From Flavobacteriia bacterium (GTDB lineage: Bacteria > Bacteroidota > Bacteroidia > Flavobacteriales_D > Crocinitomicaceae): a DNA stretch of 57,585 bases. The translations under genes were made by a program, and so were the position numbers. This document shows positions 29,632-54,800 of the stretch, piece by piece. The notes under the pieces were generated by a model. It was not told the origin of the DNA. It saw only the letters and a list, made by a program, of their open reading frames with translations, and ran no database searches. The stretch is taken from positions 1-57,585 of the forward strand of contig CANGOA010000004.1 of NCBI GenBank assembly GCA_947455255.1. The letters run 5' to 3'. Each line of letters opens with the position of its first letter. Position 1 is the first letter of the stretch.

Positions 29632-29642
29632 TCAATTTAGAG

Positions 29643-31715
29643 ATGAAAAATATTTTACTTATCGTATGTACATTTAGTTTTGGATTAGTTACATTTTCTC
29701 AAAATGTAGAATTTAAATCTTCAAATTTTAAAAGTGATAAAGAAGGTTTCAAAAAGGCAGAAGCTGCAATTGAACTTGGAGATACTTATTTTAATAAAGC
29801 AAATACACTATTGTTTGGTGTGAAGGATTATAAAGGAAATTTTATTTATGCAAAAAAACAATATGAACTAGCTCAAAGTTTTAATCCTTCAAATGCCTTG
29901 TTAAATTTTAAAATAGGGGTGTGTTTATTTAATTCAAGTAACCCGTTATCATCTTCTGAATACTTCTTTAAAGCAAAAGAATTAGATACAAATTGTGACC
30001 CTTTTTTAAATTATTATTTAGGTAGATTAGCTCAATTAGATTCCAAATTTGATGAGGCAATTGCTTTTTATGTAAAATTTTCAACGGAATACAAAAAGGC
30101 AAATGAATTTACTAAATTCATAGACCAACGTAAAAAAGAATGTGAAAATGCAAAAAAACTAATTACAAATCCTTTAAGAGTATGGGTAGATAATGTGACA
30201 GAACTAAATTCTGACCGAGACGATATTACCCCGACTATCTCTGTAGATGGTGGAGAAATGCTTTTTTCTTCTAAAAGAAAAAATGATAATACGCCAGATT
30301 CAATTGGTGAATACGATTTTGAGATCTATACTACTACTTTAGAAAAAGGTAATTGGTTGGAACCGAAAAAATTAATTGGAGATATAAATACAAAAGTAGA
30401 TGATGTAGTAAATACAATGAGTTATGATGGAACAACACTTTTAATGCATCGATCTATAAATAACCAATCAGATATCTTTGAGTCTAAATTAGTTGGAGCA
30501 AATTGGACAACTCCTGAAAAGATGAATTCTAATATTTCTAATCCAAAATATAATGATCGTTTCGCGTGTTATAATCATACAGGTTATAAAATTTACTTTA
30601 TTAGAGATAATGAAGAAGCAGAAAATGGTTTTCAAGCTGTTTATTCAGGGATGGAAAGTAAATTACGTAGAGATTATGCTACAACAACATTTTTAGATGT
30701 GCTGAATTCTAAATTTAATGAAGGTCCTATGTACATTACGATTAAAGGTGACGTGTTATATCTAGCATCACAAGGTCATGGATCTATGGGGGGATATGAT
30801 ATTTTTGTTTCAAAATTTGTCCAAGGACAATGGACAGCACCTGTTAATATGGGGTATCCAGTTAATTCTGTATATGATGATTTCTTTTATTCTCCTACTG
30901 TGAATGGTAAGTTTGCATATATTACTTCAAATAGACCTGGAGGAAAAGGTGGTTATGACATTTATAAGGTCACTTATTGGGGGCCAGATAAAACTCCAAT
31001 TGTTTCTACGGAAGAACTTTTAATTTCTTCGATTATTCAACCTGTAAATGATAATGCAATTGAGTCTAAAGTAGATGTAACTCGTAAATTTTTAACTGTA
31101 TTTAAAGGAAATACAATTGATTTATTAAATTCTCAACCAGTTGCTGCTACAATTGATATTACGGATAACGCATCTGGTAAAATTACTGAGACTGTGAATA
31201 CAAATAGTGCTACGGGTAAATTTTTAATCACTTTACCTTCAGGTAAAAATTATGGAATTGCAGTAAAAGCAAATAATTATCTCTTTCATTCTGAAAATTT
31301 TGATTTGCCGGATGGGGGAGATGATAATATTGTTTCTAAAACAATTCAATTAAAAAATGTAGCGGTTGGTAATACCATAACACTTACAAATATTTTCTTT
31401 GACTTAGGTAAAGCAACCTTAAGAATAGAATCTAATGCAGAGCTAGATCGTTTAGTTAAATTAATGAATGACGCTCCTAAATTGAAAATTGAAATTAGTG
31501 GTCATACTGATAATACAGGGTCTGCATCCACAAATGAAAGTTTATCCCAACAACGTGCTAACGCTGTAGTTGCTTATCTCCTTTCTAAAGGTATAGACAC
31601 ATCTAGATTATCAGCTAAAGGATATGGATCAAAAAAACCAATTTCCACAAATGATACAGAGTCTGGTCGCCAACAAAATAGACGTACAGAATTTAAAATC
31701 ACATCCAATTCATAA
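29643..31715 (+). CDS. PorE-like OmpA protein with TPR and beta-propeller repeats
   Basis: A 690-residue exported protein: signal peptide (MKNILLIVCTFSFGLVTFSQ), an N-terminal TPR-like region (about 40-170), then PD40/WD40-type propeller motifs (ITPTISVDGGEMLFSSKRK near 195, LYLASQGHGSMGGYDIFVSK and AYITSNRPGGKGGYDIYK near 375-445). A carboxypeptidase-regulatory-like beta domain (about 485-570) and a C-terminal OmpA peptidoglycan-binding domain (IFFDLGKATL, ISGHTDNTGSASTNESLSQQRA, NRRTEF) follow. This order is that of PorE, a T9SS component that ties the machinery to peptidoglycan. It is paralogous to the protein at 45767 and probably a PorE relative. No lipobox Cys is seen. Confidence 0.85.
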   Translation: MKNILLIVCTFSFGLVTFSQNVEFKSSNFKSDKEGFKKAEAAIELGDTYFNKANTLLFGVKDYKGNFIYAKKQYELAQSFNPSNALLNFKIGVCLFNSSNPLSSSEYFFKAKELDTNCDPFLNYYLGRLAQLDSKFDEAIAFYVKFSTEYKKANEFTKFIDQRKKECENAKKLITNPLRVWVDNVTELNSDRDDITPTISVDGGEMLFSSKRKNDNTPDSIGEYDFEIYTTTLEKGNWLEPKKLIGDINTKVDDVVNTMSYDGTTLLMHRSINNQSDIFESKLVGANWTTPEKMNSNISNPKYNDRFACYNHTGYKIYFIRDNEEAENGFQAVYSGMESKLRRDYATTTFLDVLNSKFNEGPMYITIKGDVLYLASQGHGSMGGYDIFVSKFVQGQWTAPVNMGYPVNSVYDDFFYSPTVNGKFAYITSNRPGGKGGYDIYKVTYWGPDKTPIVSTEELLISSIIQPVNDNAIESKVDVTRKFLTVFKGNTIDLLNSQPVAATIDITDNASGKITETVNTNSATGKFLITLPSGKNYGIAVKANNYLFHSENFDLPDGGDDNIVSKTIQLKNVAVGNTITLTNIFFDLGKATLRIESNAELDRLVKLMNDAPKLKIEISGHTDNTGSASTNESLSQQRANAVVAYLLSKGIDTSRLSAKGYGSKKPISTNDTESGRQQNRRTEFKITSNS

Positions 31716-33279: not shown

Positions 33280-33294
33280 CATTTAATTTTTCAG

Positions 33295-33376
33295 TGCGGA
33301 TAGAGGGACTCGAACCCACACGCCTCGCGGCACCAGATCCTAAGTCTGGCATGTCTACCAATTTCACCATATCCGC
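33295..33376 (-). tRNA. tRNA-Leu (anticodon UAG)
   Basis: An 82-nt class II tRNA on the minus strand. The acceptor stem is GCGGATA / TATCCGC with discriminator A, the anticodon stem is CCAGA / TCTGG around loop CTTAGGA (anticodon TAG), a long variable arm (GTGCCGCGAGGCGT) is present and the T arm is GTGGGTTCGAGTCCCTC. CCA is not encoded, as is common in this phylum. Confidence 0.95.
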
Positions 33377-33604: not shown

Positions 33605-36600
33605 ATGAAAGTCAATTCCTTTTTTAAAACTTTTTTACTAACATCGATATCATTTATTACTTTTAATTCTTTTGCTGGAGATATCTATGTAAACAATTCT
33701 GGTGCAATGGATGGAACTGAAATTTATTGTTCAAATCCTGGAAATGATGTTGGAGTAACTTCATCTAAGACCACTCCATTTGCAACATTAAAATATGCAC
33801 TTTCTAAAGCTAATTCAGGAGATAAAATTTATATTGATGCTGGAGATTATAAAGAAAAAACGTTAACAATTTCAAAGTCAAATATTACAATTATAGGTGC
33901 TGGACCTTTAGTCACAAGCTTTCATCCTTCTTCTCCTGGAATATCTGGAATTTATTTTATGAAAATAATTGGAGCAAGTCCTGGTTCTACAATTGATAAT
34001 ATAGTTATTAAAAATCTAAATATCTACGGCTACAATAATGTAACTTCTGGTGAGGGTGAAGCTTTGACTATTGGAAATGTGAAAAATGTTCTATTTGATT
34101 ATTGTACGTTTGGTAAAAGTGCTGGAGGATCAGGTGAAGCTGTAATTAATGTTCAATCAAATTCTATGAATGTCGTTTTTAAACACATGGGTTTTCTTTG
34201 TCAAACTCAAGGTTCTGCTGGTGGAGGGATTGATATCGGAAGTGTAAACGTAGATGTCTTGATAGATAGTTCTGTTGTTGGTTCAAATGATAGATCAAGT
34301 GGAGTTAGTTGGACTAGAGGAGCTGGTGTTTATATCCATGGAGATGCTACCGTTTCCGTGAGAATTAATAATTCATCAATTACAATGAATACTGCTCAAA
34401 TAGGAGGGGGTATATATGTTAGTGGAGGGATTCTTACAATGAATAGAACGTGTGTGTCAAATAACTCTTCTTTGACTAACTCTGCTGATTATGGAGGTGG
34501 TGTTACTCTTACTGGTACTTCAGGTTTATGTACTTTCACGGATTGCGAATTTTCAAACAACAACATATCTTCCTCTAAAGGAGGAGGGATTGCAGCATAT
34601 TCTTTAAATGCTAAAATTGATTTAGCTTTAGTATCCTGTTCTTTTATAGCAAATAAATCTTCAGGGAATTCTGGCTCAGATTTGTACACAAAACAAGTAT
34701 TTGGTAAAGTGGTAAACGTCACAGCAACCGACTGCTCTTTTGGAAGTGGTGGTACTGCAATTTATAATGCTTCAGGAAACATTACAATAAACAAGTCAGG
34801 TAATCCGACAATTTTCGGCACTATAGGTGGAGATTTGCTAGCTAAAACAACAATAACCAATACGAATTGTCCTATTGTAAATACATGTGAAATACCATGT
34901 GATCCAATAGATTCAATTGTAGGAAAAAAAACAATTTGTAATGCTAAAACAACACTAACAGTTTATGGAAATCCATTAGCTACTTTTTATTGGTATTCAA
35001 CTTCAAATGGTAAAATACCTTTTCATATTGGAAAATCATATACGACTTCATTGCTAACTAAAGACACAACTTTTTATGTGAACTCTTCATTAAGTGGGCC
35101 ATCCTGTTTTACAGTTGTAACTATAAAGCAGGATTGTAAATGTAATACCGTAATTTCTAAGGATACTACAATATGTATAGGCTCTGTTATACAATTAAAA
35201 GCATGGACAGACAGTACACAGACCGTAGCTTCTACTCCAAACCCAATTAATCCTTGGGTATCTTCCCAACCTATAGTTGCAACTATTACAAACGCAGGAG
35301 TGTTAACTGGTTTAAAAGCTGGGAAAACTGTTGTCTCTTATACGGATAACAATAATTGTTTGAAGACTGATACTATTACTGTACTAGCAAAACCGATAGG
35401 AGGAACTGCAACTCCTGATGAGGATACTATTTGTGAAAATACAACTGCTACAATTCGTTTAAACGGTTACTCTGGTAAAATTCAATGGCAGGAATCAAAT
35501 GATGGTGTAACAAATTGGAAAGATATATTGAATGCAACTTTAACACCATGTATAACGAAACCTTTAGCTAAAGGAACCTATTATTTTAGAGCTAAATTAT
35601 CAAATACTACATGTAATCAATTTGATACGAGCAATGTAGTAACTATTTTTGTAACACCTACCTCGGTTGCTGGTACACCAATAGCAACCCCTGATACCTT
35701 ATGTGCAGGTAATACTGCATTATTAACACTTTCAGGTTATACAGGTAAAATTCAATGGCAAGAATCTGCTGATGGAACAAATGGTTGGAAAAAAGTTGTT
35801 GGTGCAACCGGTGATACTACTAAGAGTTGTAAGACAGCCAAATTATTTGTTACAACTTATTATAAAGCTCTTGTAAAAAGTGGTCCTTGTCCAGCTGTTG
35901 AATCTGCTATTATTAAAGTTGTTGTTAATCCAATTTTGAGAGATAGTATTGATATTAAATCAGACCATCCTAGTGAAACAAAAATTTCAACAACCAAATC
36001 TGAAATTACAGTTTGTCCTGATACAAAGGTAAAATATACTGCAACAACCTTTAATACTTCATGTGGTCAAATTACTTACCAATGGAAAAACGGAAAAGAC
36101 ACCATTGTTGGTGCAACAAAAAGTACATATTCAACAATTACAAAAGAGTTTGATTCAATTTATTGTGTGATGACTGTTTCTGGAAATTGTTGTTATATGT
36201 TCCCTAAATTTTCTTCTGATACTATTATAACAAAAGAAGTGAAGAATGATTTTGTTGCAAAAGAATGTAAGTCACCTTCTGCTTGTGGAATTTGTGATGG
36301 TGAAATTTGCGTGGAAGGAACAGGGACTGGAGATGTTACTTGGAGTGGTCCATCGAATGGAACGAAACCAAATATTACTTTAACAATTCCAAGCACTACT
36401 AAGTTAACAGGTTTATGTAAAGGTACGTACATTGTTTCTTTTACCAATAATACCTGTGTCTTCTCGAAAGCAGTTACACTTGCAGATCCAAATGCTCCAA
36501 ATACTCCTGTTATAACATATGCGAACGATTCTATTTGTGAAGGAACTTCGGAAACATTAACTGCAACTGGGGTTGCTCCTTCAGGTACGTTAACTTATAC

Positions 36601-38809
36601 TTGGTACAAAGACGGAATTGTAATTGTTGGACAAAATTCAAATACATTATTAGTAAATGCTGTTCTTTCAGTACCTGGCAAAAATGAGTTACATAAATAT
36701 GCGGTGAAAGCAAACGATAATGGATGCTCTTCAAACATAGATTCAGTATTAATTACGTTTGTTGCTACGCCTTCAATTCCTTTGATTTCTTCTTCAACAC
36801 AAATCTTCTGTAAATCAGACAAGAAGTTAGTTTCGGATTTAACAATGTTAATTACAAATACAACTGGTACTATCGATTGGTTTGATCAAGCAGTTGGTGG
36901 TAATTTATCAAATCAAACGGTTATACTTACTTCACGTTCGTATTATGCAGAACAAACAGTTGGTTTATGTAAAAGTAGTTCGAGATTAAAAGTAGATGTA
37001 ACAATAATAGATGTTGCCGCTCCGTTATTGCCTGAAGCACCTAAAGATCCATCGTGTAATGAAACAACAGGTTCTGTAAGGTTGGATTTACCTAACGCAG
37101 GTATTTGGGATATTACAGCAATACCTTTAATTGGGAATCAAACAACTGTCAAATCTGGGAATTTACTAACACCTCCATTTACATTTACATTTACAGGGTT
37201 ACTTCCTGGAACTTATACCTTTATTTGTAAAGATCAAAATGGATGTTCTTCGCCAAAATCGTTAACCGTTACAATTAAAAATCCACCTATACTTCCAGTT
37301 ACTCCAAAGGTTAGTCCTGATTCTATTTATTGTAGTTCTAAAAAGTATCAATTAGTGGATGTTGTTTTTAAACCAAAAGCAGTTGGTACTGTGAGATATT
37401 ATGATGTTTCAGGTACTTCAATACCTGGAACAGCTACTGTATTACCGAATGTTCATTATCAATTTTCATACTTTGATGGTACCTGTGAAAGTAAAAAATT
37501 GGATACAGTGATTTTGTTTAATAATGGACCTACAATTGTTCCAATTGACCTAACATCAAAAGTGTTTTGCGCAAGTGATAAACCAACATTTAATGCATTC
37601 GTTCAAAATATACCAGTACAACCTAAAGGGTATACTATCTACTTCTCACCAAATAAAAATGGTAATCCAATTATTCCAAACGGAACTGAAATAGGTGCTG
37701 TAGATGGATTAAATCATACTATTTATTATGCAATCAAAGATACAAATGGGTGTTATAACACATCGTTTGAGCCTTTGGTTTATAAAATAAATTTAGGACC
37801 AGCAAATTTTAAATTAAAATCAGGAGTTGTTTATTTCTGTGCAAAAGATAAACCTACAGTAGCAAATTTAGATGTAACGAAAGTAAGTGGTATAGGAAAG
37901 TTAACTTGGTATATAAGTCAAAACTCAATAGATAGTTTACCTAAAAACACCTTATTAACCAATGGAGTATATTACGCAAGTTTAACGGATACAATAACTG
38001 GTTGTACCACGGTTGAACGCCAATCTGTTATTGTGTCTATTGAAACATTTGGGCAAACAACACTTGACCCTAAAAATGTTTATACTTTTTGTTTGGGTGA
38101 TAATTTAACAATTGCGGATTTACCAACTGCTCCATATAATAATTTAAACTTGGTATGGTTAAATCAAAATAAAAATCAATTAAATTCCAATACACCATTA
38201 ATCCCAGGTACCTATTATGCAGCTGAATTTAAAAATGGTTGTGTAAGTGATAAAGTACAAGAAATAGAAGTTGTTTTTAATCAACCGTTAATATCCTTGA
38301 GTCCTGATAAATTACCTACTTGCGAATTGGGGTTTGGTATATTTAAAGTTGTAGGAGCAAATCCGACATACACATATCAATGGTATAAAGATGGTGTATT
38401 AATGAATGAATCAGGTTCTTCGATTATGGGGTTACCAGATAACAAAAACACTAAGTACACAGTAAAAGTTACAGATGTGAATGGATGTACAAATTCTAAA
38501 ACAGAATCTATTGATGATTGTGAACCAGCTAAACCACCACATATTTTCACTCCTGACGGTAATGGAAAAAATGACAAGTTCATTTTAAATTATGCTTCTA
38601 AATATCCTAATTGCAAACTGTATATTTATAACAGGTGGGGTTCTTTAGTGTATGAGAGTTTAATACCATATACCGATTCTTGGGATGGAAAATCAAATAT
38701 TGGTAACGCATTGGGGGATGGTTTATTACCTGCTGCAACCTATTTTTATTTGATCGATAAAGGTGATGGGTCCCAATCAGAATCAGGATTTGTCGAATTA
38801 GTTAAATAA
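33605..38809 (+). CDS. Giant T9SS type B-sorted cell-surface protein, paralogue 1
   Basis: A 1734-residue secreted protein. A signal peptide (FLLTSISFITFNSFAG) is followed by a right-handed parallel beta-helix of about 400 residues starting PFATLKYALSKANSGDKIYIDAGDY, with Pec-lyase-type rungs. A Big_2-like domain (VATITNAGVLTGLKAGKTVVSYTD) and many Ig-like repeats follow, including the pair GKIQWQESNDGVTNWKDI / GKIQWQESADGTNGWKKV about 100 residues apart. The C-terminal 90 residues are the gliding motility-associated type B sorting domain (PPHIFTPDGNGKNDKFIL, YNRWGSLVYES, W-DGKSN). No catalytic motif is seen; an adhesin or surface layer role is likely. It shares its whole architecture with the protein at 38997. 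Confidence 0.9.
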   Translation: MKVNSFFKTFLLTSISFITFNSFAGDIYVNNSGAMDGTEIYCSNPGNDVGVTSSKTTPFATLKYALSKANSGDKIYIDAGDYKEKTLTISKSNITIIGAGPLVTSFHPSSPGISGIYFMKIIGASPGSTIDNIVIKNLNIYGYNNVTSGEGEALTIGNVKNVLFDYCTFGKSAGGSGEAVINVQSNSMNVVFKHMGFLCQTQGSAGGGIDIGSVNVDVLIDSSVVGSNDRSSGVSWTRGAGVYIHGDATVSVRINNSSITMNTAQIGGGIYVSGGILTMNRTCVSNNSSLTNSADYGGGVTLTGTSGLCTFTDCEFSNNNISSSKGGGIAAYSLNAKIDLALVSCSFIANKSSGNSGSDLYTKQVFGKVVNVTATDCSFGSGGTAIYNASGNITINKSGNPTIFGTIGGDLLAKTTITNTNCPIVNTCEIPCDPIDSIVGKKTICNAKTTLTVYGNPLATFYWYSTSNGKIPFHIGKSYTTSLLTKDTTFYVNSSLSGPSCFTVVTIKQDCKCNTVISKDTTICIGSVIQLKAWTDSTQTVASTPNPINPWVSSQPIVATITNAGVLTGLKAGKTVVSYTDNNNCLKTDTITVLAKPIGGTATPDEDTICENTTATIRLNGYSGKIQWQESNDGVTNWKDILNATLTPCITKPLAKGTYYFRAKLSNTTCNQFDTSNVVTIFVTPTSVAGTPIATPDTLCAGNTALLTLSGYTGKIQWQESADGTNGWKKVVGATGDTTKSCKTAKLFVTTYYKALVKSGPCPAVESAIIKVVVNPILRDSIDIKSDHPSETKISTTKSEITVCPDTKVKYTATTFNTSCGQITYQWKNGKDTIVGATKSTYSTITKEFDSIYCVMTVSGNCCYMFPKFSSDTIITKEVKNDFVAKECKSPSACGICDGEICVEGTGTGDVTWSGPSNGTKPNITLTIPSTTKLTGLCKGTYIVSFTNNTCVFSKAVTLADPNAPNTPVITYANDSICEGTSETLTATGVAPSGTLTYTWYKDGIVIVGQNSNTLLVNAVLSVPGKNELHKYAVKANDNGCSSNIDSVLITFVATPSIPLISSSTQIFCKSDKKLVSDLTMLITNTTGTIDWFDQAVGGNLSNQTVILTSRSYYAEQTVGLCKSSSRLKVDVTIIDVAAPLLPEAPKDPSCNETTGSVRLDLPNAGIWDITAIPLIGNQTTVKSGNLLTPPFTFTFTGLLPGTYTFICKDQNGCSSPKSLTVTIKNPPILPVTPKVSPDSIYCSSKKYQLVDVVFKPKAVGTVRYYDVSGTSIPGTATVLPNVHYQFSYFDGTCESKKLDTVILFNNGPTIVPIDLTSKVFCASDKPTFNAFVQNIPVQPKGYTIYFSPNKNGNPIIPNGTEIGAVDGLNHTIYYAIKDTNGCYNTSFEPLVYKINLGPANFKLKSGVVYFCAKDKPTVANLDVTKVSGIGKLTWYISQNSIDSLPKNTLLTNGVYYASLTDTITGCTTVERQSVIVSIETFGQTTLDPKNVYTFCLGDNLTIADLPTAPYNNLNLVWLNQNKNQLNSNTPLIPGTYYAAEFKNGCVSDKVQEIEVVFNQPLISLSPDKLPTCELGFGIFKVVGANPTYTYQWYKDGVLMNESGSSIMGLPDNKNTKYTVKVTDVNGCTNSKTESIDDCEPAKPPHIFTPDGNGKNDKFILNYASKYPNCKLYIYNRWGSLVYESLIPYTDSWDGKSNIGNALGDGLLPAATYFYLIDKGDGSQSESGFVELVK

Positions 38810-38876
38810 TCATTTTAAACTTTCTGATTGGTTAGGTGTTAAATGTCATTAGTCATGTAATTACAGATTAAAAATT

Positions 38877-38905
38877 TTGTAATTCTGTAAATTATGTTAT
38901 TTTTG
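38877..38905 (+). promoter_or_regulatory. Promoter of the type B adhesin-PorP-OmpA operon
   Basis: TTG at 38877-38879 (within TTTTG), an 18-nt spacer and TATTTTTG at 38898-38905: the best -33/-7 match in the window. It places the transcription start near 38912 and supports the ATG at 38997 rather than a TTG at 38934. Confidence 0.75.
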
Positions 38906-38996
38906 TCACACTTTATATTCGGTGTAGAATGTATTGGGCAACCCTTTACATATTTCTACGTCATTAAAGTTATTTATACGTATTAAACTTTTTTTT

Positions 38997-41900
38997 ATGA
39001 AAGCGCAGATATTTTCTAGGTTTGTTGTTGTATTGGTTGTTTTTATTTCTTCTTTTGCTAATGCAAAAGATATTTGGATTAATGATAATTCACTTTTAGG
39101 AGATGTAAATTGTACTGCTATAGGAAATGACGGAAATTCAGGTACTACAAATTCACCTTATTTATCTATAAAAAAAGCTTTAGCTGTTGCTGTTTCTGGT
39201 GATGTAATTCATGTCGAGGTGGGAACATACACAGGTACTTCTAATCGAGATCAATCGATTTCCGTTGATAATTTAACTATAACAGGTTCTGGATTAAGTA
39301 CTTCTATTTTTGAAGGAGGGAGCGTTACGGGTGGTTTGTTTGATATTGTTGCTTCAAATGTATTAATTGAAAAAATAAAAGTTCAAAACTATTGGTACAA
39401 AGGTGCTATTAATATCGCTTCTAAATCTGCATTAGATTCAACATACATAAATTTTAATTACTGTTATTTTGAAAAAAATAACGTAAGTTCAATCATAGGG
39501 GGGCACGGTGGAGGTGCTATTTATACGAAAAAGGGTGCTGTATCACATAAACCTGTTTCGTTGAAGTTGTTAGGATGTATTTTTAATACTAACGAAGCAA
39601 CAGAATCAATGAAAGGTGGTGCTGTGTATGTAACTAATGATACTTATCTTAAAGTGACAAAATCTCAAGTTGTTTGTAATGTAAATAATTCTCAATCTAC
39701 ATCAGATGGTGGTATTTATTACATTGAAGATTCAAATGCAGATTTTATTGATTGTTTAATTTCTGGAGGTGGTGCAGGAAGAAGAGGTGGAGCTATATGT
39801 ATGTCAAGTTCGACTTTGAAAACCGTTAATATTGTTAGATCGACATTCTATAATAATCAAGGACAAAAAGGCTCTATACTTTATGTTGGTAATGAATTTA
39901 ATCTAAATATCTCGAACTCTCTTTTTTACAAAAACACTCTGATAGGAGGATTTGAAGAGGGGGGGATACTTGTTGAAGGTGGTAATTCATCCGTTGCAAT
40001 TACAAACTGTACATTTGCAGATAACTTTTGTGCATCTTCATCTAAAACTACAGGATTAAAAGTAAATTCAGCAAAAAAAGTAGATGTATATAACACAATT
40101 TTTTGGGGAAATACAGGACCTGATGTAACTGCGGCATCAGCTAATTTTTCAAATTGTATTGTTGATCCTACAGGAGGTCCAACGTATACAAATGTTACTG
40201 GTAACTTAACTTCAAATCCACTTTTTACAAACTCGGTAACTTTTGATTACACGATTCAGAATTCTTCTCCTGCTATCAATAAAGGATTGTCTGTAACATC
40301 ATTTACAAATGATATAACAAGTACTAATCGTACAGGAGTAAATGATATAGGTGCATATGAATCAGGGTCAGCCTTAATTGTTTTACCTACTAGTTGTAAC
40401 ATACTTTGTGGTTCTGCTACTTTTTCAGGAACTACAGAAGTTTGTAAATCATCAACAACTATTACTGGTATTGGGACAGGAAATGCAGTATTTCAATGGT
40501 GGACTAAATCAGTCGGAGGGACATTATTTCATATTGGAGATACTTATACAACTTCGGTGTTGAATGCTGACACTACTTTTTACATTAAATCTTCCAATGA
40601 TGGTTGTTCAACTTTAGTTCCTGTTACAATTACTCAAAAATGTACACCTTGTATAACAACCATCTCTTACTCTCCGGCAGTAGTATGCTCAGGTAATACT
40701 GTGATGCATATTACTAAAACAAATTCATCTAATGCTTCAGCAACATTTTCCGTATCTCCTGTAAATGCGGGTAGTACAGCAGCATTAAATACTGCTAATG
40801 GAGATTTTGATTTATCTAAAATTACTGTTGCAGCAAAATATACGATTACAATGGCTGAGAGTGTGTCTTGTAATCCAACATTTGACATTACTGTATCTTT
40901 AAAACCTTTACAACCAACCATTGGTGTAGTAACTGACCCTACGTGTACAACAAGTGGAACTGTTCAAGTGACGAATTATGATAATACACAAACCTATGGC
41001 TTCACACCATCAACTGGAATATCTATTTCAGGAACTGGATTAATTACTGCAACTTCAGGAACCTTTAAATTTGCAGCTTCTAAAGGGGGATGTACTTCTG
41101 ATTCTACTTCAGTAACTTTTGGTGCTGTTCCAGGTAAACCAACAATTTCTGGTGCTCAATCTATTTGTGTTGGTCAATCAATTACCTTAACTGGTTCTGG
41201 AACTGCTTTAAGTTGGGCAACAAGTTCACCTGCTATTGCTTCTGTAATCAATGCAGCTTCAAATACTACAACAGTTAAAGGTATTGGATCGGGTACTGCT
41301 ACTATAACATATACTGATAACAGTAACTGTACTCAAACAGCTTCAATTCAAGTGGATCCTACAGCTGTTGGAGGTGTTGCAACTGCAACTTCATCAAGTA
41401 TTTGTACAAACACAACCACTTCTATTAACCTTGTTGGTAATGTAGGTAGTATTCAATGGCAATCTTCACCTGATGGTTCTACTAATTGGACAAATATTGG
41501 AAATGCGACATCTTCTCCGTATACAACTCCTACTTTAACAACAGGAACCTATTATTATAGAGCAGTTATTACTAGTGGAGTTTGTGCAGCAACTGCATTC
41601 AGTAATATTGTTACTATTACCGTTAGCCCAACACCAGTTGTCGGAGTTGCTAGTGCAACTCCAGATACAATATGTGCAGGTAATACAGCGCTATTAACAC
41701 TTACCGGTAGTACAGGAAATATTCAATGGCAACAATCTGCAAATGGAACAACTGGTTGGGTTAATATTATTGGAGCAACAGGTGGTACGACAGCTAATTG
41801 TACAACTGCATCTTTAAATACTACAACTTTTTATAAAACTATATTATCTAGTGGTGCTTGTACAGATATAGAAAGTACTGTATTAAAAGTTGTAGTTAAT

Positions 41901-44771
41901 CCTAATATCGCGGCATCAGTAACTATTGTTTCTGACAAAACCGAAACAGCTGGCCAAATAACAATTTGCGATGATATAGTAACTTTTACTGCCACACCTT
42001 CTTTAGGTTTAGGCATAGTAGCATATCAATGGAAAAATAGAGGTAAAACTATACCTTTAGCTAACAAATCTACTTATAAAACGAGTTTAGCTGATGGAGA
42101 TTCAATTACTTGTGAAATTACTTCTACAGGAACGAAATGTATTACAGGTTCACCAGCACTTTCAAATTTAATTAAAGTTAAAAAATATAACAATGATTTA
42201 TCTGTTGTTAGTCACAATACAACTGCTTGTAATGCGCTTGATGGGTATTTTGAAGTAAAAGGGTCAGGAACTGGTACAGTTACTTGGGTGTTAAAAAACA
42301 ATACTTCTGTTATATTAGGAACTCATAATGGTGTAACTTTAACCAAAAATGCACCACCTTTTGAAACTATTTCTAATTTAGGTCAAGGAAACTATACAGT
42401 TAATTTTAACAATGGGACATGTACATTTTCTAAAGATGGTTCAATATCTGACCCAAATGCACCACAAGATGCATTATTGTCTGTAAGTACTAATTTACCA
42501 ATTTGTCAAGGTCAATCAGTTACAATTACTGCAAGTGTTTTAGATCCATTAGCAATAACAGGATCAACAAGATACTACTGGAAAAAAGATGGTTTAGATT
42601 ATTCAGGTTCTGTACAACCTCAATTGGGTAATAGTATTACTGTTAATGTTGCTGGAACTTATTCTGTATCTTTAGTAGATGGAGGCTGTAGTTCAATTGA
42701 TAATGATACTATTGTTGCAATTACTGCTACTCCTAACGTACCTACAATTGCTACTTCTACTTTAACTTATTGTAAATCTGACAATAAAAAAGTATCTGAT
42801 TTATCTGCATTATTGACGAATGCAACTCAAACAATTACTTGGTATAATTTACTTGTTGGAGGTATAGCTTACAATAGTACAGATGTATTGACTACAGGTT
42901 CTTATTTTGCTGAACAATCAGAAGGAACTTGTATAAGTACAAGTCGCCTTAAAGTGGATGTAACAGTTGTGGACGTATCAGCTCCAACTTTACCGGGAGC
43001 AATTATTCAGCCTTCATGTTTGGTGCCTACAGGTACAGTAGATATTAATTTACCAAGTTCAGGTGTATGGGATATTACTGCGACACCTGTTGTTGGTGCT
43101 CCTGTATTAGTGACAACTGCTAATTTAACAACAAGTCCTTTTACATATCAGTTTGCTGGATTGAATCCAGGAACATATACATTTAAAGTGAAAGATTTAA
43201 ATGGTTGTACTTCTCCAATCTCAAGTTCTGCAATTGTACAAAACCAACCAACATCACCTTTAACACCTGTATTAGATGCATCAAAAATATATTGTGCTTC
43301 AAGTACATATACGTTAGATCAAATAACATTTAATCCTACTGGTTCTGTTAAATATTACGATGCTAATGATGTTGCAATTTCACCGAAAACGGTTGTTGTA
43401 GCAGGTACCACTTATAAGTTTACATTTGATAATGGAACTTGTGAAAGTAAAGTAAAATTGTCAACTGTAATTCCGATGGATAATGGACCTGCAATTGCTC
43501 CTGTAGATATTAGTAATGCAGCGATTATATGTGCTATTGATAAACCAACATTTAATTCTTTGATTGCAACATTGCCAATTACTGTTCCAGCTGGATATAC
43601 TTTGTTGATTTCTCCTAGTCCAACAGGCAATCCTGTAATACCAAATTCTTCAGTAATTGGATCATTAGGTGGTGCTTCACAAACTATCTATTACAATATT
43701 GTAAATGATAAAGGTTGTCAAAACAAGAATTTTTCAACCTTAAAATTTGCGATTAATGAAGGTCCAAAAGATTTAGTATTGAAAAATGGTATTCAAACTT
43801 TTTGTGCAAGTGATAATCCTACCGTTCTTGATTTAGATAAAACGAAAATTAGTGGTACAGGAAGCTTGAAATGGTATACTTCAGATGTTTCGACTACAGT
43901 TTTACCTTCTAATACACCTTTATCTAACGGAACTTATTATGCATCAGTAACTGCTAATCCTGGATGTGAAAGTATAAATCGTAAATCAGTAATTGTGGAA
44001 GTACAATCGTTTGGTCAAACTACGCTTGATGGTTCTAATGATTATACTTTCTGTAAAGACATAGATAAAAAAGTGTCAGATTTACAAACAACACCTTATC
44101 CATCGAATGCGATTGTTTGGTTAAACGCTAATAAAATAGTTCAGGCACCAAATACATTGTTAATACCTGGTACCTATTATGCTGCTGAAACAAAAAATGG
44201 GTGTGTTTCAGATAATCCTCAGGCAATAGTTGTTAAATTTACGTCACCAACAATTTCAATTAGCCCTAAAAAATTACCGACTTGTTCTGTAGGAAATGGT
44301 TCTTTTGTAATAACTGGAGCAAATGATACTTATACTTATAAATGGTCAAAGAATGGTGTTCCTATGTCAGAAACTGGATCTCAAATTATTAATTTAGAAG
44401 ATGATAAGTCTATAAAGTATTCTGTGATTGTAACTGATTCAAAAGGGTGTATCTCAAAAGATACTACCTCATTTACGGATTGTGATCCTGCATTACCGCC
44501 ACACATTATTACACCGAATAGTGATGGTAAGAACGATAATTTCATTTTACATTATGATCAAAAGTATCCAAAATGTCAATTGTACATTTATAATCGATGG
44601 GGCGCTTTAGTTTATAAAAGTGAAATTCCATATAAAGATGAATGGGATGGTAAATCAAATGCATCAGATGCACTTGGTAAGGATGTATTACCTGCATCAA
44701 CATACTTTTACATGGTTGATAAAGGAGATGGAACAGATCCGGAGTCAGGATATATTGAATTAGTTAAATAA
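38997..44771 (+). CDS. Giant T9SS type B-sorted cell-surface protein, paralogue 2
   Basis: A 1924-residue secreted protein with the same plan as its upstream neighbour. A signal peptide (MKAQIFSRFVVVLVVFISSFANA) leads into a parallel beta-helix (PYLSIKKALAVAVSGDVIHVEVGTY). Big_2-like and Ig-like repeats follow (GSIQWQSSPDGSTNWTNI, GNIQWQQSANGTTGWVNI), and the type B sorting domain ends the protein (PPHIITPNSDGKNDNFIL, YNRWGALVYKS, EWDGKSNASDALGKDVLPASTYF). It has about 190 more residues than paralogue 1. It starts a run of genes with PorP/SprF 21 nt downstream and an OmpA protein after that, a common setting for T9SS type B cargo. Repeats and C-terminal parts are close to those of paralogue 1, indicating tandem duplication. 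Confidence 0.9.
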   Translation: MKAQIFSRFVVVLVVFISSFANAKDIWINDNSLLGDVNCTAIGNDGNSGTTNSPYLSIKKALAVAVSGDVIHVEVGTYTGTSNRDQSISVDNLTITGSGLSTSIFEGGSVTGGLFDIVASNVLIEKIKVQNYWYKGAINIASKSALDSTYINFNYCYFEKNNVSSIIGGHGGGAIYTKKGAVSHKPVSLKLLGCIFNTNEATESMKGGAVYVTNDTYLKVTKSQVVCNVNNSQSTSDGGIYYIEDSNADFIDCLISGGGAGRRGGAICMSSSTLKTVNIVRSTFYNNQGQKGSILYVGNEFNLNISNSLFYKNTLIGGFEEGGILVEGGNSSVAITNCTFADNFCASSSKTTGLKVNSAKKVDVYNTIFWGNTGPDVTAASANFSNCIVDPTGGPTYTNVTGNLTSNPLFTNSVTFDYTIQNSSPAINKGLSVTSFTNDITSTNRTGVNDIGAYESGSALIVLPTSCNILCGSATFSGTTEVCKSSTTITGIGTGNAVFQWWTKSVGGTLFHIGDTYTTSVLNADTTFYIKSSNDGCSTLVPVTITQKCTPCITTISYSPAVVCSGNTVMHITKTNSSNASATFSVSPVNAGSTAALNTANGDFDLSKITVAAKYTITMAESVSCNPTFDITVSLKPLQPTIGVVTDPTCTTSGTVQVTNYDNTQTYGFTPSTGISISGTGLITATSGTFKFAASKGGCTSDSTSVTFGAVPGKPTISGAQSICVGQSITLTGSGTALSWATSSPAIASVINAASNTTTVKGIGSGTATITYTDNSNCTQTASIQVDPTAVGGVATATSSSICTNTTTSINLVGNVGSIQWQSSPDGSTNWTNIGNATSSPYTTPTLTTGTYYYRAVITSGVCAATAFSNIVTITVSPTPVVGVASATPDTICAGNTALLTLTGSTGNIQWQQSANGTTGWVNIIGATGGTTANCTTASLNTTTFYKTILSSGACTDIESTVLKVVVNPNIAASVTIVSDKTETAGQITICDDIVTFTATPSLGLGIVAYQWKNRGKTIPLANKSTYKTSLADGDSITCEITSTGTKCITGSPALSNLIKVKKYNNDLSVVSHNTTACNALDGYFEVKGSGTGTVTWVLKNNTSVILGTHNGVTLTKNAPPFETISNLGQGNYTVNFNNGTCTFSKDGSISDPNAPQDALLSVSTNLPICQGQSVTITASVLDPLAITGSTRYYWKKDGLDYSGSVQPQLGNSITVNVAGTYSVSLVDGGCSSIDNDTIVAITATPNVPTIATSTLTYCKSDNKKVSDLSALLTNATQTITWYNLLVGGIAYNSTDVLTTGSYFAEQSEGTCISTSRLKVDVTVVDVSAPTLPGAIIQPSCLVPTGTVDINLPSSGVWDITATPVVGAPVLVTTANLTTSPFTYQFAGLNPGTYTFKVKDLNGCTSPISSSAIVQNQPTSPLTPVLDASKIYCASSTYTLDQITFNPTGSVKYYDANDVAISPKTVVVAGTTYKFTFDNGTCESKVKLSTVIPMDNGPAIAPVDISNAAIICAIDKPTFNSLIATLPITVPAGYTLLISPSPTGNPVIPNSSVIGSLGGASQTIYYNIVNDKGCQNKNFSTLKFAINEGPKDLVLKNGIQTFCASDNPTVLDLDKTKISGTGSLKWYTSDVSTTVLPSNTPLSNGTYYASVTANPGCESINRKSVIVEVQSFGQTTLDGSNDYTFCKDIDKKVSDLQTTPYPSNAIVWLNANKIVQAPNTLLIPGTYYAAETKNGCVSDNPQAIVVKFTSPTISISPKKLPTCSVGNGSFVITGANDTYTYKWSKNGVPMSETGSQIINLEDDKSIKYSVIVTDSKGCISKDTTSFTDCDPALPPHIITPNSDGKNDNFILHYDQKYPKCQLYIYNRWGALVYKSEIPYKDEWDGKSNASDALGKDVLPASTYFYMVDKGDGTDPESGYIELVK

Positions 44772-44792
44772 TTAAGTCGAAAGTTAGAATAA

Positions 44793-45710
44793 ATGATAGT
44801 CTCAAAATTAAGGTTTCAGCTTAGCGCACTTTTATTAGTTTTTATAGCTAGTAATGAAGTGTTTGCACAACAAGACGCTCAAGCAAGTATGTATATGTTT
44901 AATCCCTTGCAATATAATCCAGCTTATACTGGTAGTAGAGGTGCATTAAATGCTACTTTGGTTAATCGCGCGCAATGGATTGGAGTTCAAGGAGCACCTG
45001 TAACACAATTTTTATCTTTACATGCTCCAATCGCTCGTAAGGCATTTGGATTAGGAGGGCATATTTCAAATGATAAAATTGGTGCAAAATACAATACAGC
45101 CATATTTGCTGATTTTGCTTATTCGCAACCTTTGACTCGAAAATTGAGATTGAATATAGGATTAAGTGCAGGTTTGGATATGTATAATTTTGATTTTACT
45201 AACTTGAATCCAAATGATCCAACAGATAATAATTATTTGGTAAAGTCTGGTAAAGTGGCTTTTAATACTGGAGCAGGATTATATTTACATTCTAGTCGTT
45301 TTTATGCAGGAGCTAGTATTCCGAGATTAATGAATGCAAGTTGGAATAATGTTGATTTAGCTGTTCAACATTTCTTTCTAACGGCAGGTTATGTATTTAA
45401 AATTAATTCTGTTACAGATTTAAAAACTAGTACTTTAATTAAGATTGTTAAAAATGCACCTATTACTGCTGATTTAAATGCGAATCTTTTCTTTTATAAA
45501 AAATTCTGGATTGGTGCTATGTATCGTTATAACGAATCATTTGGTGTAAATTTAGCAATTCAACTTCAAGAAAAATGGATGTTTGGTTATTCTTATGATT
45601 TTGTCTATAATCAACTTAGATCAACTAAGAATATTGGAACACATGAGGTCATGCTAACCTATGACATGAATGGACGTAGGTCTATTTATGCTTCCCCAAG
45701 ATATTTTTAA
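44793..45710 (+). CDS. PorP/SprF-family T9SS outer-membrane protein
   Basis: A 305-residue outer-membrane beta-barrel. Signal peptide (LRFQLSALLLVFIASNEVFAQ), then the family signature QASMYMFNPLQYNPAYTGSRGALNATLVNRAQWIGVQGAP, with later segments FGLGGHISNDKIG and WMFGYSYDFVYNQLR. PorP/SprF proteins help attach particular type B cargo to the cell surface, with one member usually encoded beside each cargo gene, as here. The gene follows paralogue 2 by 21 nt and precedes the OmpA gene at 45767. Confidence 0.92.
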   Translation: MIVSKLRFQLSALLLVFIASNEVFAQQDAQASMYMFNPLQYNPAYTGSRGALNATLVNRAQWIGVQGAPVTQFLSLHAPIARKAFGLGGHISNDKIGAKYNTAIFADFAYSQPLTRKLRLNIGLSAGLDMYNFDFTNLNPNDPTDNNYLVKSGKVAFNTGAGLYLHSSRFYAGASIPRLMNASWNNVDLAVQHFFLTAGYVFKINSVTDLKTSTLIKIVKNAPITADLNANLFFYKKFWIGAMYRYNESFGVNLAIQLQEKWMFGYSYDFVYNQLRSTKNIGTHEVMLTYDMNGRRSIYASPRYF

Positions 45711-45766
45711 AATTCTGAATATTTATAAATCAAAAACAAAATTCCGTGAAATTAGTTTACCAACCA

Positions 45767-47902
45767 ATGAAATTAAGTTTAACTGTTCTACTGCTTGTCT
45801 TAGTTACAAGTTTTTCTTTCGCACAAGAAAAAAAGATTGCATTTGCTGAAAAGTATTTTAATGCTCATCGTTATGCTGAAGCAAGTGAAATATATTTAGA
45901 GCTAATAAACAAAAATAAATTAGATGCAGAAAGTCATCCAGATGTATATCGAAATGCAGCTGAAGCATGTATAAAATGCAAAAAGTACGATGATGCAAAT
46001 AATATTCTTTCTTATTTAAGTGGAACTACTCAATTTACTTTTGAAGATTCTTATAAATTAATAAAATTGTTACTTTATATGGATAAAGCTTTTGATGCTG
46101 AGGCTATTTATAAACTTCCAGCTTGTTCAACCAGCATTGATCCAAAGAAAGCTACCTTAGATATTTATTTCGATAGTACCAATTTTTTAGCTAATTTAAA
46201 AAGTGATACATCGTTATATTCTGTTTCATTAGCTTCATTTAATTCTAATAGAGGGGATTTTTCTCCTGCTTTTCATCCTAAAGGTATTGCTTTTACTTCT
46301 GCTCGTAATAACGCAATGGAAACACCTTGGGCTGTTGAAAATTCCGCATTTTTAGAACAATATCTTTTTGATAAATTCACAAACAAAGTAAAAAAAATTA
46401 AAGGTATAAAGGGGAAAAAACATGATGGTGTAGCTTATTATGATAGTATTGATGCTATATGGTATTATTCAAAAAACTTGAAAGCAAAAAAGAATGTTCC
46501 TTTAACTACAGTTGGCATTTATATTTATGATGCAACAACCAAAAAGGAAACTGCATTTGCGTATAACAATGAAAGTGTATTTGTTGGCCATCCTGTTTTA
46601 TCAAAAGATAGACAAGTATTATGGTTTGCATCTAACCGTGAAGGAGGTTTTGGTGGTATGGATATCTGGTATTCTACTAAATCTTCAGATGGTTGGGCTG
46701 AACCTGTGAATGCAGGAAGTCTTGTTAACACAACAGGAGATGAAATGTTTCCTTACGAAGCCAACGGAAAACTTTTCTTTGCTAGTAATGGACATCCAGG
46801 TTTAGGAGGTTTAGATATTTTTAAAGCTGAATTAGTTGGTCAGGATGCTCAAAAAGTAGTTAATGGTGGTTGTAATCTAAATAGTCATGCTGATGATTTT
46901 TCATTAATTGTTGATGCTTCAGATACGTTAGGATATTTTTCTAGTAATCGTGGTGATTTTATAGATCGCATTTATAACGTAACATTGTTGAAACCTAAAA
47001 ATGATTCTATTTTCGTGAAATTTGTTCAAGACTCTGTTGCTGATATCTTAGTGGAGGTTCTTGATTCTGCTGGTAATGTTATTTTCTCTGGTGTTACAAA
47101 TGAAGCTGGTGAATTAATGTTTAAAGCTTTACCGGATGTCGTTTATAAAGTAAGAACGAAACATCCTGATTTAGTTGATTCTGAATTTGATTTTAATGCA
47201 ATTGGAGTTATCGCTGGCGATACATTAACAAAAGAACTAGGATTACACAAAAAACAAGTTACATGGTCTGGTGTAGTTACGGAAAAAGAGACTCAAGATA
47301 AATTGGAAGGTGCTGAATTATCAATCAAAAACTTAGAAACAGGAGTAATCACTACTGCAATGTCGGGTAAAGATGGAGAAATCAATGTTGATTTACCTCC
47401 AGGAAATTATCAAATTACTGCTTCCATGTTTGGTCACGATCCAAAATCATTTAAGTTAACTGCAGAGAAAGGTCAGAAAGAAGTGAAACAAGATGTTGAA
47501 CTTTCTAAAACAGGTAAATATGTTGCAGTTAAATTAGATAACATACTTTACGAATACAATAAATATACTTTAAGTACAATTGGTAAAGCAGAACTTGATA
47601 CTTTAGTATTATTCTTAAAAGAAAATAAAGATGTAAATGTTGACGTAAGTTCACATACAGATAGTAGAGGTAAAGCTGAATACAACATGAACTTATCTAA
47701 ATTACGTAGTCAAAGTTGTGTGAATTATTTAGTTACTAAAGGAATCCCTCGAGCTAAATTAAATGTTAAAAATTACGGTGAAACTGAATTATTAAATAAG
47801 TGTGCTGATGGGGTTGAATGTTCTGAAGAATTACATCAGATTAACCGTCGTACAGAATTTGTTTTAATTTTCCCTGATGAAAGCAAAGATGTGAAAAAAT
47901 AA
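45767..47902 (+). CDS. PorE-like OmpA-family protein downstream of PorP/SprF
   Basis: A 711-residue exported protein: signal peptide (MKLSLTVLLLVLVTSFSFAQ), a TPR-like N-terminal region (AEKYFNAHRYAEASEIYLELI), propeller-type PD40 motifs (LWFASNREGGFGGMDIWYST near 293, FFASNGHPGLGGLDIFKAE near 340), a carboxypeptidase-regulatory-like domain (about 500-570) and a C-terminal OmpA domain (SSHTDSRGKAEYNMNLSKLRS, NRRTEFVLIFP). It has the PorE order of domains and likely links this secretion and attachment set to peptidoglycan. Start at the ATG 45767 gives a clean signal peptide; an upstream GTG at 45746 is less likely. The operon ends at a terminator. Confidence 0.87.
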   Translation: MKLSLTVLLLVLVTSFSFAQEKKIAFAEKYFNAHRYAEASEIYLELINKNKLDAESHPDVYRNAAEACIKCKKYDDANNILSYLSGTTQFTFEDSYKLIKLLLYMDKAFDAEAIYKLPACSTSIDPKKATLDIYFDSTNFLANLKSDTSLYSVSLASFNSNRGDFSPAFHPKGIAFTSARNNAMETPWAVENSAFLEQYLFDKFTNKVKKIKGIKGKKHDGVAYYDSIDAIWYYSKNLKAKKNVPLTTVGIYIYDATTKKETAFAYNNESVFVGHPVLSKDRQVLWFASNREGGFGGMDIWYSTKSSDGWAEPVNAGSLVNTTGDEMFPYEANGKLFFASNGHPGLGGLDIFKAELVGQDAQKVVNGGCNLNSHADDFSLIVDASDTLGYFSSNRGDFIDRIYNVTLLKPKNDSIFVKFVQDSVADILVEVLDSAGNVIFSGVTNEAGELMFKALPDVVYKVRTKHPDLVDSEFDFNAIGVIAGDTLTKELGLHKKQVTWSGVVTEKETQDKLEGAELSIKNLETGVITTAMSGKDGEINVDLPPGNYQITASMFGHDPKSFKLTAEKGQKEVKQDVELSKTGKYVAVKLDNILYEYNKYTLSTIGKAELDTLVLFLKENKDVNVDVSSHTDSRGKAEYNMNLSKLRSQSCVNYLVTKGIPRAKLNVKNYGETELLNKCADGVECSEELHQINRRTEFVLIFPDESKDVKK

Positions 47903-47920
47903 TTATTGCTTAATTTTATG

Positions 47921-47956
47921 AATAGCCTGTGGATTTTCTACAGGCTATTTTTTTTT
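47921..47956 (+). terminator. Intrinsic terminator ending the adhesin-PorP-OmpA operon
   Basis: Ten-bp stem AATAGCCTGT (47921-47930) / ACAGGCTATT (47940-47949), 9-nt loop, then a T run of 9. It lies 18 nt past the OmpA stop and ahead of the riboswitch promoter. Confidence 0.9.
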
Positions 47957-51867: not shown

Positions 51868-54800
51868 ATGTTTCGATGCATAGCTGTATTTTGGGTTGTT
51901 TTAGTTAGTTTTTTTGGACTGGCACAAGCTCCTACAGCTGATTTTTCAACTACAACAACAAAGGTATGTGTTGGAACTTCGATTAGTTTTTCTAATTCAT
52001 CTTCTTCTGGAAATTCACCGATACAAATATCTTCTTGGGATTTTGGTGATGGGAATACTCAATCTGTTTCAGGTACAGGGGGGACAGAACACACGTATAC
52101 AACTCCAGGGATTTATACCGTAGAGTTATTAGTCATTGCGAAAAGTAGTGTAACAGGTCAAAAGAAAAAAGCTAATTATATAGAAGTTTTAGCATTACCC
52201 AAAGCAGATTTTGATTTTTCAGGGGATAAATGTTCAGTTCCAGCGATGATTAACATAATTAACAAATCATCTTCTGGATCGGGTTATTCTTATAAGTGGG
52301 ATTTTGGTAATGGGCAAACAAGTACGTCTAATTCACCAAGTCCGGTTCTATTTTCAAATGCAGGTTCTTTTTCGGTTTCATTGACTCTATCAAACAATTA
52401 TCCTGGGTGTTCTGGTACATCAGGTTCATTAACAAAATCAATCACAATCTATGATTTTAAGGGGGCGGTTTTAGGACCTAATTCAATATGTGCTGAATCC
52501 TCAACCTCATTGATAGTTAAGCCAAATAGAAAGGTTGATACTTATTCTTGGGATTTTGGGAATCAAACGTATGGTGGAAATAATGACACCATGAGCGGCA
52601 CATTTAAGAAAGCAGGGAGCTATGTTGTAGAAGTTACTATGACAGATAATTCCATTGGGTGTTCTGCAAAATCTTATTATAAAGTTCAGGTAAAACCTTT
52701 ACCAACTCCTAGTTTTACAGTGGATAAATTTAAAGTTTGTCCTACTTTTCCTGTTCAATTTTCAAATACCTCTACTGAAGGAACAAATTTTGCATGGAAT
52801 TTTGGAGAAGAAAGTTTTTCAGGTAAAAATCCTCCAGCAATTGCATATAGTAAAGAAGGTGATTATACAGTGTCATTGGAATGTAAAGGTTCAAACGGAT
52901 GTGTTGGTATAACAAAAAAAGAAAAATATATTTTGGTTCATAGTCCACATCCAAAGATTTCAGCAGATAAAGTCAAAGGTTGCTCAATGCTCACTACTCA
53001 ATTTTCAGACTCATCAAAAATGGCAGATGAAAATAATCCAATAGTTAAATGGGAGTGGGACTTAGGTAATGGGCAGACTTTTGTAGGGAAAACACCACCG
53101 AAACAGATTTATGATGTTGATAATTACAATATTCGATTAAAAGTGACAACATCACTGAATTGTGTAAATGACACTTTATTTCCTTGGTTTATTAGAGTAG
53201 GTCATATAGATAAAGTAAATTTCACAGTACAACCGAAATCAGAGTGTATAAAAACTCCTGTTCAATTTACAGATGCTTCAATTATAGTAGCAAAGCATTT
53301 AAATAATGAAATTTTATATACTTGGGAGTATGGAGATGGTATTAAAGAAACTAAGAATAATCCAACGCATGCTTATAGTTTAGATACAGGTTATTTTGAT
53401 GTAAAACTAAAGATTGATTTTAGAGGATGTCTGGATTCAACTACTATTCAAAATTCAGTCTATATTAAACCTACTTTGGCTTCATTTGATGTCCAAAAAT
53501 TGTATTGTAATCCTGTTATGCCTATATCTGTTCAATTTAATGATCATTCCAAATCAAGAAATAATCATGATGTTACAGTCAATTGGGCGTTTGGTGATGG
53601 AAAGACAGGGGTTGTAAACAAAGTCAATATGGGAAATCCTTCTTTAGGGTCTTTGAGTTCTGTTTTTACTAATTATGGGACGTATACAGCAGTTCAAACA
53701 GTAACTAATCATACAACAGGGTGTATTGATACTGCGAAAAGAGAATTTCATATTTCTTGGGTAAAGCCTAAATTTTCTGTAGATAGAGATTCTGTATGTC
53801 AATTAACAGAAATAGGGTTTCACGATGCAAGTACTAGTTTTGATAAACATCCGTTAACTTCATGGGTATTTAATACAGGAGATGGAGGAAAAGTTTCTGG
53901 TATAAATCCAAAATATACCTATAAAAACGGAGGTGAATTTGAAATTGCTTTAACCCCTACTAATTCTGTTGGATGTTTTGATACGAAGACTTATGACAGT
54001 TTAATTGTTTTGACCTTACCTAAAGCAGATATTGTTTCAGATAAAAAAATAGGCTGTATTGGTTCAGTGGTTACTTATACAAATCAATCTTCAGTTCAGA
54101 AAAATGGTGTTGCGATGAAAACTTATTTATGGAAGTTTGATTACACAAAAAAACAAGACTCTACGTTTAAAATAGGAGATAATAAGGTGTTAACTTATCA
54201 AGCTGTTGGAGTGTTTAATACATACCTACAAGTTCGAGATAAGTTTGGGTGTAAATCGTTTTTAGACACAGTTAAAATTGAGATTACACAACCTAGTTCT
54301 GAGTATGTTTATAAGCCAATAGTATGTAATAACGAAGTATTTAAAACATATTGTAAAAATACTGCGTCTGGAACACAAAATTCTTGGTTGATAGATAATG
54401 TACAAGTAGCAATAAATAAGGATACTTTGAGTTATTCATTTCAAGATAAATCGAATGAAACATTTGTTTCTCATACTATCTCAATGGCTTCAGTGGATAT
54501 AAATGGTTGTCCAAATAAAAAAGAGAATATTGTAACTGTTTCTTTACCAAAAGCAAATATTTCATATCATTTAACTAGTCAATTAGAAAATAATATGACA
54601 GAAAAAGGAGAGTATAAATGTCCGCCAATTGAATCTAAATATCAAGATTTTACTGCTTCGATAGGTAAAATAGACTCTTCTTTTTGGAGTTTTGGAGTAG
54701 GGAAAAAAGCGGCTATTCATTCACCAACGATTAATTATCTTTTTCCAGGAACTTACTCTGTAACTCTGAAATCTAAAGATGAATATGGTTGTGTTAATGA

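Follow-up and report, generated by a model that had tools for sequence, protein, structure and literature searches.

The window, by which we mean the whole stretch of 57,585 nucleotides that was analysed, carries two giant type B adhesin genes in tandem, P1 and P2, followed by a gene for a PorP/SprF-family carrier and a gene for a PorE-like protein (Table 1). An earlier note on this DNA had described two giant paralogues of 1734 and about 1924 residues with Ig-like domains and type B tails, only the second of which is directly followed by a PorP/SprF gene and then an OmpA/propeller gene, and the gene coordinates and family scores agreed with this description. CHU_C scored 75.0 bits in P1 and 78.6 bits in P2 (cut-off 27), the type B sorting domain TIGR04131 42.5 and 45.5 bits (cut-off 35), and Ig_7 125.5 and 88.1 bits (cut-off 27.3). 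P1 consists of a signal peptide, a beta-helix-like head up to about residue 430, an Ig_7/Ig-like stalk, and a CHU_C sorting domain at 38537-38800. P2, which would have 1945 residues from an alternative TTG start, resembles P1 in its stalk and its C-terminal sorting domain (CTD; CHU_C at 44499-44762) but not in its head. The two proteins are 48% identical across 1236 C-terminal alignment columns, while their heads are about 19-38% identical.

Table 1. Features of the tandem adhesin locus (positions in the window)
Feature	Position	Strand	Basis or remark
P1, type B T9SS adhesin, 1734 aa	33605..38809	+	families; full-length orthologue in G009
P1-P2 gap, 187 nt	38810..38996	no strand	no room for a PorP gene
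P2, type B T9SS adhesin, 1924 aa from ATG	38997..44771	+	families; alignment to P1
PorP/SprF-family carrier, 305 aa	44793..45710	+	PorP_SprF, TIGR03519
PorE-like OmpA/propeller protein	45746..47902	+	weak TPR-type, PD40, CarboxypepD_reg, OmpA; probable Met start at 45767
Strong intrinsic-terminator-like hairpin, 14 pairs plus T run	47920..47950	+	closes the P1-P2-PorP-PorE unit

The carrier, hereafter the window PorP, belongs to PorP_SprF (PF11751; 239 bits against a cut-off of 22.3) and to TIGR03519 (242 against 90.6). It has no cysteine in the whole protein and ends in ...YASPRYF, with the SPRYF codons at 45693-45707. The PorE-like protein matched PD40, CarboxypepD_reg, and OmpA above their cut-offs and a TPR-type family weakly (16.6 of 27.2 bits); its scores against PorE (NF052230, 260 bits) and the CHU_0125 family (NF053607, 279 bits) fell below the respective cut-offs of 600 and 620 bits. 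A search of solved structures by sequence returned none for the window PorP, and the matches of the PorE-like protein fall in its OmpA region. A possible promoter for P2-PorP-PorE, TTTG-N18-TANNTTTG, lies at 38876-38905; it is weak, the window having eight matches to this pattern with 4.3 expected.

Several neighbouring features were also seen. A tRNA-Leu gene (33294-33376) sits between the trigger factor gene and P1; in the related genome G006 this interval holds genes for a GDSL esterase, an MMPL transporter, and a DEAD helicase, and in G001 it holds open reading frames of similar size. Across the trigger factor gene, at 28537-31715, lie a TPR protein and then a second PorE/CHU_0125-like OmpA protein of 690 residues, which scored below both cut-offs. 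Just downstream of MetH, at 51868-55626, is a PKD-repeat protein of 1252 residues with a CHU_C tail and no accompanying PorP; in other genomes of the genus, the contigs G009:C12, G006:C6, and G001:C13 hold both the adhesin locus and CHU_C proteins of about this size.

The tandem arrangement is a variant of the known type B adhesin/PorP/PorE arrangement. According to the excerpted text of PMC9143113, the type B CTD protein PG1035 of P. gingivalis is bound by PorP and PorP by PorE, and PorE-linked type B proteins were postulated to be non-mobile within a split of such systems into static and mobile ones. The corresponding partners are encoded at our locus, with a PorE-like protein in the place of PorE. 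In F. johnsoniae, Fjoh_3952, Fjoh_3951, and Fjoh_3950 show the gene order and families found here (type B adhesin, SprF-like shuttle, PorE-like protein), and the part of PMC12618676 that deals with them proposes a static complex, in line with microscopy of Fjoh_3952. Compared to that locus, the window has two adhesins before one carrier, and their CTD type is shared with PorP-less adhesin-PorE loci. The SprB-SprF pair likewise combines a type B adhesin with the PorP/SprF family. SprF, however, has a Cys-x-Cys tail, which the excerpts of PMC12635249 describe as disulfide-bonded to GldK, needed for normal movement on the track, and dispensable for export, whereas the window PorP has a PorE-like neighbour and lacks such a tail.

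To place the locus in its genus, we used a sample of 13 genomes. The region around the best carrier match was read in 11 of them, with the window genome (G000; an assembly 77% complete in 212 contigs) as the twelfth and G004 left out. Six relatives (G006, G009, G007, G001, G003, and G011) have a PorP 76-84% identical and a PorE-like protein 80-87% identical to those of the window, followed in each by a homocysteine methyltransferase gene. The number of adhesins was counted in the six genomes with a readable upstream side, this side being cut or near a contig end in the others: G000 and G009 have two, and G006, G007, G001, and G011 have one. An assembly artefact is unlikely as the source of the tandem, since the pair recurs in G009. 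Where the start was visible, the adhesins ranged from 1365 to 2188 residues, a range that compares different species and not strains. A search for related loci in named genomes gave one weak match, in a Flavobacterium MAG, which was left out of the analysis.

The P1 proteins of G000 and G009 are orthologous over their whole length (50-88% identity in blocks of 100 residues). The counterparts of P2 in G009, G006, and G007 resemble it in signal-peptide start and stalk, with head blocks only about 16-42% identical, and the first 300 residues of the G001 adhesin barely align with P2. Over the first five blocks, the G006 head is more like that of P1 (34-55%) than that of P2 (20-37%). The PorP/PorE-like anchor is constant and the adhesin head changes.

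The earlier note had assigned a beta-helix to both paralogues, and this assignment stood in part. In a domain profile search the P1 head had no family match above cut-off, but its predicted model, of low confidence (mean pLDDT 56), shows regularly spaced strands, and its top fold matches were tailspikes, with AlgE and the PfbA adhesin lower in the ranking. The P2 head gave a marginal choice-of-anchor Q match (25.7 against a cut-off of 25); its model was poorer (pLDDT 50), and the fold search with it gave no match at E<=0.001. On this evidence both heads look like beta-helices.

Changing heads on similar stalks would also be expected if similar repeats drove recombination or phase variation in the pair, making it a cassette. 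The heads do differ across species while the stalks stay alike, and the greater likeness of the G006 head to P1 than to P2 (43-55% versus 20-29% in blocks 2-4) suggests that heads may have moved in the past. The earlier note had further proposed that the repeat units within and between the paralogues are close enough to recombine. Homologous recombination requires longer identical stretches, with a minimum of about 20-30 nt, and the longest word common to the P1 and P2 genes, which are 56% identical as DNA, is 19 nt; the proposal is therefore unsupported. TRF found no tandem array in the window except an 18-nt unit repeated 2.3 times, and among the 20 of 32 DNA repeat families listed, identity was at most 78%. 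Identity at four-fold sites between P1 and P2 was 0.391, compared to 0.384 expected by chance from composition, so that these sites are saturated; the G009 pair gave 0.358, with a longest common word of 17 nt. Collectively, these four lines (TRF, repeat search, exact words, and four-fold sites) led us to reject recombination through repeats, and the lack of any recent exchange in either genome leaves a repeat-driven cassette with very little probability.

As only P2 adjoins a carrier gene, the question is which protein carries P1. The earlier note had suggested one attachment protein for both cargos, and the CTD comparisons support this suggestion. First, the CTDs of the two adhesins show 67% identity across their last 100 residues (67.8% over 90 residues). 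In F. johnsoniae, according to PMC12618676, the shuttle that belongs to a 68% identical CTD supported secretion of a given CTD, while the shuttles of CTDs with 43% and 26% identity did not, so that P1 and P2 stand at the level of published cross-talk. Second, CTD similarity predicts the adjacent PorP type within the genus: of 66 PorP-adjacent CTDs, 62 have their closest counterpart from another genome next to a PorP of the same cluster, and all four exceptions are singleton clusters. This test covers PorPs with an adjacent CTD gene, which include 10 of the 11 members of the window's PorP type but not the window-genome PorPs on contigs C55, C33, C14, and C1. Third, with its own G009 orthologue left out, the P1 CTD reaches 75.6% identity with its closest match among CTDs that adjoin PorPs of the window's type, and 43.8% with that of the next PorP type. 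Fourth, a CTD tree places P1, P2, the CTDs adjoining PorPs of the window's type, a CTD on contig C67, and the CTDs of nine PorP-less loci in a single 22-row clade (SH-aLRT 98); the tree and the placement of P1 in it come from 92 columns, with many forks left unresolved. Based on the CTD identity, the family clades, and the published cross-talk, it is well supported that P1 and P2 share one outer-membrane carrier, the window PorP. At the C67 locus itself, from about position 1768, a type B CTD 47% identical to that of P1 is followed by an open reading frame with a beta-helix-type start like the P2 head, perhaps a second tandem pair.

Alternatively, P1 could be carried by a different, unlinked PorP without a CTD neighbour and might then be mobile. 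Adhesins without a carrier gene of their own are common in the window genome, where 26 of 33 CHU_C matches lack an adjacent PorP (24 of 31 above cut-off), and the four PorPs without an adjacent CTD would be candidates for such a role. In F. johnsoniae, the excerpted text of PMC12618676 describes orphan CTDs, more than 44% identical, that have a common shuttle, Fjoh_1677; as here, one carrier serves several CTDs. Those orphans are assigned to the gliding machinery, and no type B gene immediately precedes their shuttle gene, whereas in the window one does, and the PorE-like gene comes next. The difference between 75.6% and 43.8% CTD identity argues against an unlinked carrier, as does the position of P1 directly upstream and in the same orientation in two genomes, and we consider such a carrier improbable. 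A PorP gene of its own next door to P1 was rejected for lack of room in the gap.

The shared carrier may extend beyond the tandem. On contig C38 of the window genome, the gene for a type B adhesin of 2109 residues has a PorE-like gene immediately after it and no intervening PorP. This CTD-PorE order without a PorP was found at 9 of the 11 loci examined (G000, G001, G003, G006, G007, G009, G010, G011, and G012), and all nine genomes also have the window's PorP type; at the other two, in G005 and G008, no CTD was seen. The 11 loci were taken from 26 candidates; most of the rest are PorE genes that adjoin a PorP and had been counted there, or are incomplete or weak matches. Since the CTDs of these PorP-less adhesins fall in the 22-row clade, the window PorP may serve them in trans.

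The existence of units that lack a PorP, with a CTD gene directly before the PorE-like gene at those nine loci, also lends some plausibility to a different history of the tandem, in which a whole adhesin-PorP-PorE unit was duplicated and the PorP and PorE of P1 were then lost. The earlier note had likewise allowed that the upstream gene lost its own carrier gene, a possibility that the locus does not favour: the gap is only 187 nt, the order in G009 is identical, four relatives have a single adhesin, and the P1 CTD is nested among P2-type CTDs, P1 and its orthologue standing beside G009 P2 (support 94, not starred). A duplicated unit with later loss thus appears highly improbable, and P1 would instead have arisen within the genus as an adhesin-only duplicate.

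Compared to PorE of P. gingivalis, which the excerpts of PMC7192894 describe as a lipoprotein, the PorE-like partners differ in their attachment. A lipobox was absent in 41 of the 42 surveyed, as judged by a simple pattern and with some starts uncertain, and the window PorE-like protein has neither a lipobox nor any cysteine in the first 40 residues from its probable start. Since these partners lack a lipobox, PorP may be their only outer-membrane contact.

These comparisons make it probable, in our judgment, that P1 and P2 are two static adhesins, alternative or co-displayed, on one carrier and one tether. P1 and P2 would be exported by Sec and then by the T9SS translocon, and their closely related type B CTDs would be captured by the single window PorP. 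PorP would remain bound as the outer-membrane anchor and would be held in place by the PorE-like protein, which is expected to bind peptidoglycan via its OmpA domain. From the PorE-like neighbour and a PorP tail free of the SprF-type twin cysteine, and from these only, P1 and P2 are predicted to be static and tethered to peptidoglycan rather than moved along the gliding track. The window PorP probably also serves the unlinked C38 adhesin with its own PorE-like gene. With the anchor pair kept while the heads change, the module would act as a constant mount for a varying set of binding heads. The locus is an ordinary but well-defined type B adhesin/PorP/PorE system. Its features are the tandem, a carrier that is probably shared, and satellite loci that lack a PorP, and it provides a clean natural instance in which a single carrier likely serves both tandem and unlinked cargo.

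The last step of this mechanism, contact of the PR-aromatic C-terminal tail of PorP with PorE, is a hypothesis that came from the tails of PorPs and their gene neighbours. The genus survey covered 118 of 119 PorP matches (one on contig C26 of G002 was left out at a contig end), with two loci classed as cut. All 28 PorPs with a PorE-like gene directly downstream end in PR-aromatic with no tail cysteine. With GldJ downstream, 13/13 end in CPxF, one in each genome; with GldK downstream, 11/11 end in HPRWL and so also fit the PR-aromatic pattern. This ending was found at none of the 77 other uncut loci, those adjacent to neither PorE nor GldK, and cysteine tails were seen in 13 PorPs whose neighbour is a divergent PorE-like gene. 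The identities of GldJ, GldK, and GldL in the window genome and of PorU in G001 come from NCBIfam, with one example each.

Similar patterns were seen outside the genus, where 15 of 17 PorE-adjacent PorPs are PR-aromatic without a tail cysteine. In a random sample of 60 loci from at least 146 PorP matches in genomes of the class, 12 of 14 PorE-adjacent PorPs end in PR-aromatic and the others in SSRNF and SFRFL, none of the 14 with a tail cysteine; at the other loci the ending occurred in 1 of 46, directly before a weaker PorE-like gene. GldJ-adjacent PorPs end in CPxF (8/8) and GldK-adjacent ones mostly in VRFL (9/11). A third sample of 16 loci left out the 11 matches of the window genome, one match without a locus, and six weak matches. 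Its three PorE-adjacent PorPs end in [ST]PRFF, and none of the other 13 is PR-aromatic without cysteine, although two CPRF tails fit the bare pattern, which admits cysteine. In this sample, the four PorPs of one genome carry two close tail cysteines, like the published SprF motif.

The tail classes could, however, reflect common descent only, with no role in docking, and we give this reading slightly less than an even chance. In a 177-row PorP tree the tail changes only 14 times and the neighbour only 15 times, and a phylogeny-corrected test found only 4-6 independent contrasts, the tail going the same way as the neighbour in 1-2 and showing no difference in the rest (3-4); the sign test was not significant, and a second PorP tree had the same outcome. 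Because each tail class is an old clade, the association does not amount to proof of docking. Descent alone fits less well with the last five residues being 93% identical in PorP cluster 4, compared to 76-78% for the preceding 35, with the same motif occurring beside PorE at two separate places in the tree and in three samples, or with the role in track attachment shown for the SprF tail (excerpts of PMC12635249). We treat the docking role as a hypothesis in view of the old clades, the cysteine-tailed PorPs beside divergent PorE-like genes, and the PR-aromatic GldK-linked PorPs that have no PorE neighbour.

A joint reading of the tails, which we offer tentatively and would rate as somewhat doubtful, is that a PorP is bonded to the moving gliding track by its cysteine tail (CxC, or CPxF where GldJ adjoins), that VRFL or HPRWL marks the PorP encoded with GldK, and that a single PR-tailed PorP can be the hub to which several adhesins and two or more PorE-like tethers connect. 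If this label held, the many adhesin systems of the PorP/SprF type in Bacteroidota could be divided by sequence alone into fixed and mobile classes, and the question of the PorP-PorE contact could be reduced to five C-terminal residues. In the open-access literature, as covered by titles and the openings of abstracts, nothing was found on a link between the PorP tail and PorE or on PorP-less adhesin-PorE loci. The CPxF-tailed PorP, which lies directly before GldJ and once also next to PorU, was present in all 13 genomes of the genus and at 8 of the 60 class loci.
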